A DNA stretch of 64,000 bases from Haloplanus salinarum (GTDB lineage: Archaea > Halobacteriota > Halobacteria > Halobacteriales > Haloferacaceae). This document shows, piece by piece, positions 44,227 through 49,962 of this stretch. Every line of letters starts with the position of its first letter. Within the stretch, counting starts at the first letter, position 1. The notes under the pieces were generated by a model. It had not been told where the DNA came from and ran no database searches. It was given only the letters and a program-made list of their open reading frames with translations. A program made the position numbers and the translations under genes. The stretch covers positions 2,796,987 to 2,860,986 of the forward strand of contig NZ_CP101823.1 of assembly GCF_024498175.1 (NCBI RefSeq), written 5' to 3'.

Positions 44227-47200
44227 TCACTCCGACTCCAGTGCCAGCGCCGCCAGCATCGCCTCCAACTGCACCCGCTCGTTGGCCCCCTCGGTGATGC
44301 GGTAGTCGGCCTCGCCCAGGCGCTCCATCAACTGGACGGTTCGGCGGTCGTCGAGGTCGAAGTCCCACGCCGACCGGTGGAGTTGGTCGATGACGTCGCC
44401 GCCGGCCATGCCGGAGTCGACGAGCAGCGTCTCCAGCGTCGAACGGGCGCGGGGGAAGTCGCCCTCGATGGCGGCCTCGACCATCGACTCGATCTCCTCG
44501 GGGCGGGCGGTACCGGTGACGGTGTAGACGGCCTCCTCGTCGACGACGTCGCCGGTCGTCGCCGCCGCCTGCAACGTGTTGATCGCCCGTCGCATGTCGC
44601 CGCCGGCGGCGTAGACGATGGCGTCGAGGCCGTCCTCGGTCGTCTCGATGCCCTCCGCGTCGGCGATCTCGCGGACCTGCGCCGCGATGGCGTCGTCGGA
44701 CAGCGGCGAGAACCGGAAGACCGCACACCGGGACTGGATCGGGTCGATGATCCGACTGGAGTAGTTACACGAGAGGATAAAGCGGGTGTTGTCCGCGAAC
44801 TGCTCCATCGTCCGGCGGAGCGCCGACTGGGCGTCGGAGGTGTTGTGTGTCAGAATCCCGTTGGCGAGCATGAAGTTCGGCGTTCCCTCCATACTGATGT
44901 TGTAGGCCTTGCCCCGGTGGCTGTGTTCGATGCGACTGATCTCTACGGTGTCGACCGTCCGGAGGCCGCCATCCGAGAGTACTGCAGGATCGAACTCCGA
45001 CCGCTCGTAGTGTTCGTGGTGGGGGAGTTCCGAGTCGCCGACAACGACGAACGTGTATTCGTCGCCGTAGGTGTCGAGGAATTCCGTTACTTTCTCCGTC
45101 TGTCCCCACAGTTCGGCAACGCCCTTGACCTCGATTACCGTATCGTCGACCAGGAAGTCCGGGTGAAACACGGAATCGGACAGTTCGAACGCGGGCTCGT
45201 ACTCGTAGTCGATGTTCGCGTCCTGCAACGCCTTAGCGACCTCGTACTCCCAGTCGGAGCGGACGAGGTGACCGAGTTCGTCGCTGTGTCTGACGTTGCC
45301 GCCAGTCGGTTCGTGTCCCTGTAGTGCGTCCGAGACTTTCTGTGCGATCTCGGGGTCGCGCATGGGGTTGTCGTCGCCGCTGATATCACGGACCGGATAA
45401 TCCGTACTCTCGACGCTCTTTTCGATGATCGCCGCTCGCTCGTCGTCGCCGAGGCCCTCCCACCACTCGGCAGAGGCCGACCCGATATCCTCTTTCACCC
45501 GTTCGGGATCGGCATCGACGACCCACTCCTCCCACGGCGTTCCGGACCGCATCTCGCTGATCGTTTCGCGGACGCGCTCGACCGTCCGCTCGTCCATTTC
45601 CCAGACGTGGACGCCGTGGAACTCGCCACCGTAGTTCGGGTTGTTTTCGCCCGCGAACCTCCCGTCAGAGAGTTTCTCGACGATCTTCCGGCGTCGTTCG
45701 TCCGACCACGTCGTCCCGTGCATCGGGTTCCGTTCGCCGCTCATATCCCGGCTGTGCCCTTCGTCCTTGCAGTCGACGGAGCAGAAGCGTCCGGCGGTCC
45801 ACGCATCACAGATCTCACACCGCGACACGCCGATGTCGTCTTTGAAATCCGCGATCTCGTCCCCCGGGGACAGTTCGTGCAACTCCCTCTCGACGAGTTT
45901 CCCGTCCTCGTCGATCACGAAGAACGGGTGGCTCGGACTCGCCAGAACGGACCGGCCATCCGCCAGTTCGATCTCGAAGAAGTCCGCAACGCCCGAATCG
46001 ACGAGTTTCCCGCTGTCGGACTGTATCTCGTTCGTCTCGAAGTCGACCGACGGGATCGGCTCACCGTCGTCGCTCACTTCTTCTATCGGCTTCACTTCGG
46101 GGTTTGACGGATAGCCGGTGACCACCTCTGTCCCCGGCGGTACGCACAGAGAGTCGGCCTCGTCGAGGAAGATGATCCGGTAGTCGAAACCGCCGAACGA
46201 GGAGCGGGCGAAGTTCTTGATCCGGTCGCGCACGACGTCGATGCCGCGCTGGTCGGAGGCGTTGAGTTCGAGGAAGTTGCCCCGCCAGTCGTCGGCGTAC
46301 ACCTCACGGGCGATGGCCGTGGCGCAGGTGGTGTTGTGCATCACCGACGGCACGCCGCCGGCGACGTAGTTGCGGGTTCCGGGGACGGCGAGGTCGTAGA
46401 CCCGACGTGCTTCGTCGACCGGTTCGACCGATTCGACCTCGTCGAAGTAGAGGTCGGCATCGGTGAGCGTGTGTAGCGTCGTGAGCGCGTCGAGGACCGC
46501 CGCGGACGGGAGTCCGGACGCGATGGACCGGATGCGATCGGCGATGGTTCGGAACCGCGTCAGCGATCCGAGGTCGTTGCCGCCGTCGAGGAGGCTCTGG
46601 ACGTCCGTCCCGTGCATGTCCGTCCCGTCCGCGACGTGCTCGTATGGAATCTCCAGCGTCTCGATGGCGTCCCGAAGCGTCGCTCGAACGTGCTCGACGT
46701 CGACGTCGACGCCGTCTTCGTGAAGCCGATCGAGCAGTTCGATCGTTCGGTCGCTGCCGGGCGTGCGGCGGCCGTCCGCGTACTCCAGCAGTCGGTCGGA
46801 TCCGACGCCGACCCGTTCGGCGAGGGTTCGTCGCGTCTCGATCGGTTCCAAGTCGTCGCGCGTGCCGACCCCCGTCGCGGGGATCGATGCAACGGCATCG
46901 AGATCTGCGGCGAGTTCGTCGATCCGTTCGAGCGTCCGCTGCGCGTCGTCGAGGCGCGCCGTCGCCGCATCCACGAGGGCGTCGACGCAGTCGAGATACC
47001 GCTCGCGACCGGGGGATTCGGGATTCAGACTGTCGGGGATGTAGTCGCCTTTCGTCAGGTAGAGCCGCTCACAGAGCGTATCGGCGGCGGCCTGTGTCGG
47101 CACCGTATCGTCGTTCGGATCCGGATCGCGGGCGGCGTTGGTTTCGAGCCGATCCGCCTTCTCGTCGATGCTGAACCCGACGCGGTCGGCGAATCGCTCG

Positions 47201-48591
47201 AGATGTCGGGCACTGGAGACGTACAGCGTGTGGTACGCCCGCTCGGTTCCCGAGCCGTTCGTCGGCGCCTTCCGCTCGCGCTTGCGTCGACTCGGGATGC
47301 CGAATCCCGAGAGCAAGTACGAGAGAAGGGTGATGAGGTGTTCGTCCTTCTGTGTCAACTCGATAATCCCGTGTTCGGTAACGTGCGCCTCGGCGTCGAA
47401 GACGGCACGGAGGAACGCCGTCCGACTCGCCTCGTCGGCGCGGACGAGCGTGGAACCGATGCCGGCCGTCCCGCCGTCGACGTCGAAACAGGCTGCGAGG
47501 AAGTGTGTCAGCGTCCGCGTGTGAAGCTCGCGGTACGGAACGCCGTCCTGTGTTCCCCGTCGCGGTTGGAGACCGAACACCGACTCGGCGGCGGTCTCGA
47601 ACCGGTCGAGTAGCCCGTCGTCCGTATTGTAGAACTTCACCCGACCGCCATCGATCCGGGCCTCGCTCACGGCAAGCCCCACGAACGACGCCAGCGTCGG
47701 CGTGAGTTCCCACGGTGGCGTGATCGGCTCGGAACGCTGGTTGTTCCGGGTGACGTACTGGACGGCCGTAACGTGCGTGCGTAGTTCGTCGCGGGCGACG
47801 TCGAGACCACGGAGGGACGACAGCGAACAGACGGTACTCGGTTCGTCCAAGTCCACGTCGAGGTTTCGGCGGTAGGACTGGACGGTCTTTGTCGTCGTGC
47901 CGGCGGCGTCCGCGATAGTGGCGTCCGACTCCCCACGTCGGAAGCCAGCGACCACGCGTTTCTTCTTGCCGACGTAGTTCTCCTCGGCCGGGATGTCGTG
48001 GTCGGCGGCGAACGACTCGGTGACGTGGACGACGGTTCGGTCACCGTCCATCGCACCCATCCAGTCGAGGCGACCGTCGCCCTCGGGAAGCGGCGTTCGA
48101 CGGGGCCGAACGACGCGGATCCCGGCAGTGAGGTCGCCGGCACGTACCCACTCCAGTCCGTCGTGAGCCACGGTCAGGAGTCTGTGTTCCGGCGTCACGG
48201 TCAAATCGTTTCCATCCCGCGTCGTGACACGGACGAGGTCGTCCGTCGTCTTTCCGAAGACGTGCGACGGTGTCGTGAACTCGAACGACCCGTCGTCGCG
48301 GAACGTCAGCACTTCCAACCCCGCGTCCGGGTCGTCGAACCCCTCTACCCCACCGACGGCGTCACCGATTCGCTCGACGCCGCGGTTCGTCAGGACCGGG
48401 GTATCGCCCGTCACGCACTTTCCGACGCCGGCCGGCCCCGAGAACAGCAGGTGCGGCAGGTCGTCGCGCTCGATGTAGCTCTGTAGTCGGTCGACGATGT
48501 CGCCCTGTCCTTTCACCTCGTCGAGGGTCTGGGGGCGGTACTTCTCGATCCAGATCTCCCGGCCCGCCGACGACCCCTCGGAATCGCTCAT
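44227..48591 (-). CDS. rfcS: Replication factor C small subunit, precursor with two inteins
   Basis: A 1454-residue precursor encoding a 324-residue RFC small subunit, the AAA+ clamp loader that places PCNA on DNA. Exteins are residues 1-58, 754-815 and 1251-1454. Extein features: [20 protein letters not shown], Walker A GPAGVGK followed by [23 protein letters not shown], Walker B FLDEADSL followed by [15 protein letters not shown], and the SRC motif [10 protein letters not shown]. One intein interrupts Walker A and the other the end of Walker B, so both must be removed for activity. A TATA-like gtttatgtg box lies about 27 bases before the ATG, divergent from the SAMP2-GNAT gene. Confidence 0.97.
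44842..46146 (-). other. RFC intein 2, 435 residues, with PD-(D/E)XK-like nuclease
   Basis: Inserted between FLDEADSL and TSDAQ (precursor residues 816-1250). It starts [18 protein letters not shown], has block [11 protein letters not shown], and ends [14 protein letters not shown]. No LAGLIDADG motif is present. Instead there is a cysteine pair ([17 protein letters not shown]), a NUMOD3-like stretch ([20 protein letters not shown] and GENNPNYGG) and a nuclease-like segment: [20 protein letters not shown] followed by [16 protein letters not shown], with the PD...ExK residues of the PD-(D/E)XK superfamily. This architecture is uncommon for inteins. Confidence 0.9.
46333..48417 (-). other. RFC intein 1, 695 residues, LAGLIDADG type with extra HTH parts
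   Basis: Inserted after GPAGVGK in Walker A (precursor residues 59-753). It starts [13 protein letters not shown], has block [12 protein letters not shown] and ends [13 protein letters not shown] before a Thr. The endonuclease pair is recognisable but worn: [13 protein letters not shown] and [16 protein letters not shown], with the acidic positions kept as Glu. Between the splicing block and the nuclease is [20 protein letters not shown], a helix-turn-helix; near the end [20 protein letters not shown] looks like an XRE-type one. At 695 residues it is larger than most inteins. Confidence 0.92.
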
Positions 48592-48669
48592 GTCCTATCG
48601 AGGGGTCGGTCGGCACATAAACCGAGCGGAACCCGAAGGTTCAGGCCCGTCGGTCGACTCCAACCGTCC

Positions 48670-49335
48670 ATGCCGACCGTTCGTGCCGAGGTCGTCGGCG
48701 AAGGCGTCAGGGCGGTCGACGTCGCCCCCGACGCCACCTACGGCGACCTGCTCGCGGCCCTCGAGTTCAGCCCCCACGAGGCGGCCGTCCTCGTCGACGA
48801 TTCACCCGTCCCCGAGGACCGCACGGTCGACTTCGAGGCCGACGTGCGCGTCCTCCGGCTGGTCAAGGGGGGCGACGGGACGCGACCGGCCGATATCGAC
48901 GACCGGGTGCGAGTCGGATCCGCCGACGCCGACGATCACCTCGACGTCATGCGCGTACTCGACGGCGCGGTGCTCTCGGTCGACGCCCGGACCGTTCGGG
49001 AGCGCATCGACGACGGCGCGGCCCTCGTGGCGACCGTCGAGGGGCGGGTCGTGGGCGCCCTCGTCCGCGACGGCGACCGGGTGACCGCCGTGGCGACCCG
49101 GCGCCGGTGGCGCGACCGGGGTGTCGGCACCGCGCTGGTGTCGGCCGCCGCCGCGGAGCGGGACCGCCTCGTCGCCGAGTTCGACCCCGACGTGCGGCCG
49201 TTCTACGAGTCGCTCGGGTTCGAGGTCGAGCCGACGGGGGACGGCGACCGCCTCCGGGGCCGGTTATCGCGGGAGTCGGCGCGAGAGCGCGGCCCCGATG
49301 TCGTCGGTCCAGTAGAGCAAGGCGACGGTGAGTAG
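48670..49335 (+). CDS. samp2: SAMP2-like ubiquitin modifier fused to a GNAT acetyltransferase
   Basis: A single 221-codon frame. Residues 1-68 match the small archaeal modifier SAMP2 (HVO_0202 type): VRAEVVGEGVRAVDVAPD, then LEFSPHEAAVLVDDSPVPED and the end VRVLRLVKGG with the diglycine at 67-68. SAMP2 normally stops there and is conjugated through that glycine. Here the frame runs on with no stop through DGTRPADIDDR into a GNAT domain (about 79-200) with the CoA loop RRRWRDRGVGTALVSAA and the end YESLGFEVEPTG. A GTG at 48907 could start the GNAT part separately. The gene is divergent from rfcS. Its 3' end overlaps the next gene by 72 bases. Confidence 0.85.
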   Translation: MPTVRAEVVGEGVRAVDVAPDATYGDLLAALEFSPHEAAVLVDDSPVPEDRTVDFEADVRVLRLVKGGDGTRPADIDDRVRVGSADADDHLDVMRVLDGAVLSVDARTVRERIDDGAALVATVEGRVVGALVRDGDRVTAVATRRRWRDRGVGTALVSAAAAERDRLVAEFDPDVRPFYESLGFEVEPTGDGDRLRGRLSRESARERGPDVVGPVEQGDGE

Positions 49336-49962
49336 GAAAACGAGGGTCGAGAGGTCCCACGCGAGGCCGGTCAGCGTCGAGCCGAACAGCGTGGTCGCTC
49401 CGAGCAGGGGCAAGAGAAGGGAGAAGGCACAGCCGACACAGGAGAACAGGCCCAGGACGCCGGAGAGCACCGCCCGCGACGCCGAGAGCAGGCGGGCGTA
49501 GACGAGGTAGGTCATGGCGACGTAGCCGACGACCTTGAACGGGATGATCGACAGCCTGACCCGCGGCGTGCCGTAGACGACGATCGGACCCAGCCCCGGG
49601 ATGTTCCAGTGGATCGAGGCGACCGCACCGCCGTTGAGCGGCCCGTCGATCCCGAGCTGGAGGGTGCCGCCGACCACCAGGAGGAGCAACAGGTAGCCCC
49701 CGGACAGGGCGGCCGCGACGCCCCACTGACGGCGGGTGACGCTCGGCGTCTCGGTTCGGATCACCGCCCACACCCCGGCGTTGATCCAGAGGAACGGGTA
49801 GACGACGTAGCGGGGTTCGGTGACGATCACGTCCGAGACGGCGAGGTAGGCGGTGACGAGTGCGAGTTCGGCCGCGACGACGAGGAACCACCAGCGGATG
49901 GCGGCCGTCTCCGCAGCCAGGAGCCGGCGAACCCGCGAGAGGGGACCGTAGGCGCCGCTCAC
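49264..49962 (-). CDS. Haloarchaeal integral membrane protein
   Basis: A 232-residue protein with six to seven hydrophobic segments, among them WWFLVVAAELALVTAYLAVS, ALSGGYLLLLLVVGGTLQLG and SGVLGLFSCVGCAFSLLLPL. A CVGC motif inside the fifth helix (residues about 170-175) is distinctive. No transport or enzyme motif is known to me. It belongs to a haloarchaeal family of unknown function. The 3' end overlaps the convergent SAMP2-GNAT frame. Confidence 0.75.
   Translation of the reverse strand: MSGAYGPLSRVRRLLAAETAAIRWWFLVVAAELALVTAYLAVSDVIVTEPRYVVYPFLWINAGVWAVIRTETPSVTRRQWGVAAALSGGYLLLLLVVGGTLQLGIDGPLNGGAVASIHWNIPGLGPIVVYGTPRVRLSIIPFKVVGYVAMTYLVYARLLSASRAVLSGVLGLFSCVGCAFSLLLPLLGATTLFGSTLTGLAWDLSTLVFLLTVALLYWTDDIGAALSRRLPR

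Follow-up and report, generated by a model that had tools for sequence, protein, structure and literature searches.

What becomes of a ubiquitin-like modifier whose gene runs on, without a stop codon, into that of an acetyltransferase? SAMPs, the best-studied archaeal ubiquitin-like modifiers, were worked out in Haloferax volcanii. In Haloplanus salinarum, ORF 48670-49335 (+) of the window (the whole 64-kb stretch of genomic DNA analysed here) starts with ATG and forms a single open frame of 221 aa plus stop. It encodes a SAMP2 domain (aa 1-68, ending in VRVLRLVKGG) joined by a short linker to a GNAT domain, and is stop-free at the junction. Judging from sequence comparison, we consider it likely (probability about 0.78) that SAMP2 is made here as a pro-protein and cut after the diglycine by a desampylase, giving free SAMP2 and an equal amount of GNAT.

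SAMP2 and GNAT domains share one reading frame

The locus can be divided into the following features:
48633..48645 (+): conserved upstream element CCGAAGGTTCAGG, a probable promoter element (BRE/TATA position of a leaderless transcript), its core found in 12/12 Haloplanus
48670..48873 (+): SAMP2 domain, aa 1-68 (NF041919, PF21965, predicted beta-grasp)
48868..48873 (+): junction diglycine, aa 67-68, with the putative cleavage site after Gly68 (invariance, predicted exposure)
48874..48906 (+): variable linker, aa 69-79, of species-variable length and sequence, always in frame
48907..49266 (+): GNAT domain, aa 80-199, its first codon being GTG 48907 (PF13508, PF13673, PF00583, fold matches)
49111..49128 (+): acetyl-CoA binding loop RDRGVG, aa 148-153 (R148, G151 and G153 unchanged across 14 fused proteins)
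49267..49335 (+): C-terminal tail, aa 200-221, and stop codon, not conserved

The first-pass annotation had proposed a SAMP2-like domain and a GNAT acetyltransferase in one frame, and both domains of the 221-aa ORF do exceed the model cut-offs. Residues 4-68 match the SAMP2 models NF041919 of NCBIfam (85.3 bits, cut-off 70; model positions 3-66 of 66) and PF21965 of Pfam (76.7 bits, cut-off 27), and with E about 1e-14 this part also matches the H. volcanii SAMP2 chains of known structure (PDB 2l32/4hrs). Residues 106-187 score above cut-off with the GNAT models PF13508 (37 bits, cut-off 27) and PF13673 (36 bits); PF00583 is also above cut-off for this domain. Together with the acetyl-CoA loop, which follows the R/Q-x-x-G-x-G/A pattern, these matches place the second half in the GNAT family. 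Its Foldseek matches include NatC, Thermoplasma Ard1 and many other GNATs, with E down to 9e-8.

AlphaFold predicts two confident domains for the fusion (mean pLDDT 91, pTM 0.66), including a beta-grasp in the SAMP2 half (pLDDT about 95), while residues 68-71 have pLDDT below 50. In this model the junction diglycine is placed in an exposed flexible linker. The C-terminal part, roughly 20 aa beginning near aa 201 (49270), is variable, and the frames of several relatives stop at about aa 200; in Haloplanus salinarum this tail region runs into the end of the convergent ORF 49264-49962 (-).

The diglycine that closes the beta-grasp domain of SAMP2 proteins is present (aa 67-68), while a free C-terminal glycine is absent from the encoded protein, whose chain runs 153 residues past GG. 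Since residues beyond GG are likewise encoded in 70 of the 274 haloarchaeal SAMP2 genes surveyed, an encoded free C-terminus is no strict trait of the family, and the mature form of SAMP2 may still end in a free glycine. The only match to the 221-aa protein in the 3.45-Mb single-contig genome is ORF 48670-49335 itself, and a genome-wide search of Haloplanus salinarum for a second, free SAMP2 found none. The genome also encodes two SAMP1-type proteins (L172 and L173, genome positions 2537800-2538600 and 3318000-3318900; NF041918 132 and 109 bits, cut-off 60). Both end in GGA, i.e., one residue past the diglycine, so trimming would be needed there too.

The fusion is fixed in Haloplanus and the junction diglycine is invariant

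The one-frame SAMP2-GNAT fusion was found in 12/12 Haloplanus genomes searched, at 66-84% identity. A sequencing error, a chance event or a strain-specific indel is ruled out by the open frame common to all of them and by linkers which differ in length and sequence but are always in frame. Loss of a stop codon, whether through error or through the indel offered as an explanation in the first-pass annotation, thus fails against twelve independent genomes.

A processed precursor should keep its diglycine at the junction while the linker varies, and this is what was found. The GG codons differ among the 12 Haloplanus (GGG GGC, GGC GGC, GGT GGC, GGA GGG and others) while the amino acids are invariant (pS 0.56, pN 0, pN/pS 0). 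The linker evolves almost neutrally (pN/pS 0.90), whereas SAMP2 aa 1-66 (0.40) and GNAT (0.46) are under purifying selection. In all Haloplanus fusions (48844-48873 here; relatives L001-L012) arginine replaces K58 of H. volcanii SAMP2 (VRVLRL or VRILRL), the lysine on which SAMP2 chains are built in that species; the second lysine, preceding GG, is retained.

Comparison of orthologues in related genomes, a check suggested by the first-pass annotation, has shown that the genes are fused throughout Haloplanus and are usually separate neighbours outside the genus. In the nearest genomes outside Haloplanus the SAMP2 stop codon comes directly after GG (L014, L015) or two residues later (L017, L029). 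The Haloplanus fusions group into a single supported clade of the SAMP2+GNAT tree; in two Halorubrum-like genomes (G133, G137) both genes became fused independently. The neighbourhood of the two families in Halobacteria (arCOG00535 - arCOG04721) was listed by Makarova and Koonin (2010; PMC2948915). The same two families stand there side by side as in the fusion; however, the relevant passages of that paper list them as separate genes and mention no fusion, whereas Haloplanus has a single frame. We suggest that the fusion arose when the stop codon between these two genes, adjacent in most haloarchaea, was lost, and that it is tolerated because a desampylase is present to process it.

SAMP2 extensions are widespread in haloarchaea

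SAMP2 is near-universal in the haloarchaeal class (383/391 genomes). In our first survey of 173 distinct SAMP2 genes GG was retained in 172. The chain ends at GG in 94 genes and continues for 1-3 further residues in 25 and for 4-40 residues in 26; another 14 run into GNAT and 14 have other extensions of more than 40 residues. Of the 90 distinct extensions, 76 begin with S, A, R or T directly after GG and none begins with P, V, L or I, a preference resembling that expected of a cleavage site. The sole SAMP2 without GG (L061, metagenome contig PXSV01000183) goes out of frame after VLVD and then continues into a redoxin-like domain; this anomaly is probably an assembly frameshift, and the gene was set aside in reading the survey.

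AhpC/TSA and redoxin models match both of the long extensions scanned (L092 from Halorussus and L108 from Haloparvum). SAMP2 shares a frame with a longer domain in L069, L071, L073, L074, L079, L087, L092 (Halorussus), L084 (metagenome bin SW_6_65_15), L108, L199 and L218-L220, and by eye the remaining proteins resemble the two scanned ones. Supported branches of the tree force at least two changes of the long-domain extension state.

Among the sampled genomes, extended SAMP2 is confined to those with a desampylase

If an extended SAMP2 has to be cut, genomes lacking the protease should be free of extensions. We searched 391 genomes of the class for the desampylase (JAMM1 or HvJAMM1 family, model NF041370) and obtained no match in 81. 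The SAMP2 end was read in 80 of these, G373 being left out for want of a SAMP2 match, and in 80/80 SAMP2 ends exactly at GG. The same is true of 15/15 genomes with sub-cut-off desampylase matches only. Among 179 desampylase genomes, a non-random sample picked blind to SAMP2 ends except for the first ones, which were found via the fusion, 70 encode SAMP2 with residues past GG (short tails, GNAT, AhpC/TSA redoxin). Hence wherever the precursor was found in these sets, its cognate protease was found as well. The other 109 genomes have no SAMP2 extension; this is expected, since the enzyme also removes conjugates, and is therefore not diagnostic.

The association is significant by Fisher test with genera as units (p 1e-4) and within the family of Haloplanus (p 2.7e-4). 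None of the 13 extension gains inferred on the tree falls on the desampylase-less branches that make up 36% of its length (P about 0.003, a branch-length estimate on a tree built from SAMP2 and GNAT themselves). An independent-pairs test on the SAMP2+GNAT tree never gave a contrary direction, though it had no power. As a specificity control, another Prok-JAB protein was found to be kept in 80/80 desampylase-less genomes searched; the presence of a general JAMM therefore fails to account for the pattern. The link between desampylase and SAMP2 extension is correlational.

Haloplanus salinarum itself encodes a desampylase with an intact JAMM motif (NF041370, 158 bits, cut-off 130) and UbaA (NF047750, 521 bits, cut-off 450). 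JAMM matches were obtained in 12/12 Haloplanus; in the draft genome G010 (79% complete, outside the desampylase sample), which has the fusion, there is only a weak JAMM2-like match.

Processing of the fusion and alternative readings

We propose that one transcript would give one SAMP2-GNAT chain, which the haloarchaeal desampylase (HvJAMM1 family, NF041370) would cut after Gly68. The cut would free SAMP2 with a diglycine C-terminus that UbaA could activate for its conjugation to lysines and its role in tRNA thiolation, and the same cut would release the GNAT acetyltransferase in an amount equal to that of SAMP2. We infer that the chain is cleaved, with the desampylase acting as the protease, and that GNAT is active once freed. 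The mechanism of cleavage is taken from published HvJAMM1 and CsJAMM biochemistry. In vitro, HvJAMM1 cuts a linear SAMP1-MoaE fusion precisely behind GG, and in vivo this cleavage likewise needs HvJAMM1 (PMC4443979); the enzyme is reported to act on both linear and isopeptide links of SAMP1-3 (PMC4048286). SAMP precursors of C. subterraneum are cleaved by CsJAMM (PMC6043591). The original suggestion that a single chain would need a JAMM-type cut after Gly-Gly agrees with the genus-wide conservation and the invariant GG ahead of a freely varying linker. It also agrees with the presence of both UbaA and desampylase in the genome and with the lack of extensions in 95 genomes without a full desampylase.

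Alternatively, the fusion could stay intact, with SAMP2 regulating or targeting the acetyltransferase as a permanent part of it while other SAMPs are conjugated and thiolate tRNA. The similar constraint on both domains and the presence of other GG-ending ubiquitin-like proteins, SAMP1-type by model, in the same genome are compatible with this. However, the genome has no separate SAMP2 in spite of the near-universal presence of this protein in the class, and the GG is invariant while neighbouring residues drift. Moreover, a GNAT-specific role cannot explain why GG-retaining extensions also occur with unrelated cargo or as tails of 1-3 aa. We therefore regard an intact product as unlikely. That the cut after GG is made not by the NF041370 desampylase but by JAMM2 or some unrelated protease seems slightly less probable still. 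A second JAMM with an intact HxHP...SxxD motif is encoded in the Haloplanus salinarum genome, and H. volcanii JAMM2 has been genetically linked to SAMP2 turnover (PMC4895103), but recombinant HvJAMM2 was reported in the same paper to be inactive, and a JAMM2-like protein occurs in 80/80 searched genomes without desampylase, none of which has an extension.

Least probable, in our opinion, is that translation starts anew at GTG 48907 and yields GNAT separately from SAMP2, the alternative put forward in the first-pass annotation, with the open frame between them being accidental. This GTG does stand at the beginning of the GNAT fold, and start codons are found nearby in 6/12 Haloplanus species, but their positions do not match among species, and the other 6/12 have no ATG, GTG or TTG at all between GG and helix 1 of GNAT. 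As the GTG is not conserved and half of the linkers are startless, internal initiation is unlikely and this alternative was rejected. Linker changes among the 12 species have all kept the open frame, and internal initiation would still provide no stop behind the GG of SAMP2.

Cleavage by the desampylase thus remains the preferred reading, and we tentatively extend it beyond Haloplanus. In haloarchaea the desampylase may generally mature SAMP2 from pro-proteins, a step so far overlooked, with the cargo (GNAT, AhpC/TSA redoxin) co-released at a fixed ratio or controlled by the cut, which would link sampylation to acetylation and redox defence. If many haloarchaea make pro-SAMP2, the desampylase has a second job, maturation, possibly hidden by the choice of model species, and precursor processing becomes open to a clean genetic test in one of the archaeal ubiquitin-like systems. 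The "no desampylase, no extension" pattern is a concrete prediction and the part likeliest to interest specialists, while the recurring cargo domains suggest partners of SAMP2.

Comparison with known modifier fusions

SAMP2 of Haloferax volcanii (HVO_0202) belongs to the same curated family, has the same VxVLRLxKGG C-terminus and is a near-universal single gene in haloarchaea. Its solved domain matches up to GG (residue 66), whereas the Haloplanus chain continues through the linker into GNAT. The Ubl-MoaE (MoaD-MoaE) fusions of Crenarchaeota, Mycobacterium and Deinococcus also have an internal-GG Ubl in front of an enzyme, but the Ubl family and the partner are different. MoaE is the partner enzyme of MoaD, and we know of no link between GNAT and sulfur transfer. 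Both halves of Ubl-MoaE fusions are freed by a JAMM protease (PMC4443979, PMC8832034); the haloarchaeal SAMP1-MoaE was an artificial construct.

In eukaryotic ubiquitin fusion precursors and the archaeal CsUb precursor the modifier is cut after GG, as proposed here for SAMP2-GNAT, but the cargo is a ribosomal protein or a short tail and not an acetyltransferase or redoxin. To our knowledge, no E2/E3 system has been reported for SAMPs. Thaumarchaeal Cgi121-Ubl and MoaD-MoeB are lineage-wide archaeal Ubl fusions with other partners (PMC2948915, PMC11237513). A term search of the text of a 2024 archaeal fusion catalogue returned neither SAMP nor GNAT, and no description of SAMP2-GNAT or SAMP2-redoxin fusions was found in the open-access literature, a scope that excludes most subscription papers. 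By analogy, we judge that SAMP2-GNAT would work like the Ubl-MoaE fusions and the ubiquitin precursors, with new partners.

Upstream region and neighbouring gene

The GAAnnTTCAGG core of the upstream element is kept in 12/12 Haloplanus and lies 24 nt before the ATG in this genome. CCGAAGGTTCAGG occurs once in the window at up to 1 mismatch (0.10 expected), and its location suggests a probable promoter element. Two sets of Haloplanus species align poorly with each other over the upstream flank, so different upstream genes apparently adjoin the fused gene in the two sets. The divergent neighbour 44227-48591 (-), named rfcS in the first-pass annotation, is a 1454-aa frame in which two long inserts seem to split an AAA-ATPase-like sequence, each with the HNT ending typical of inteins.
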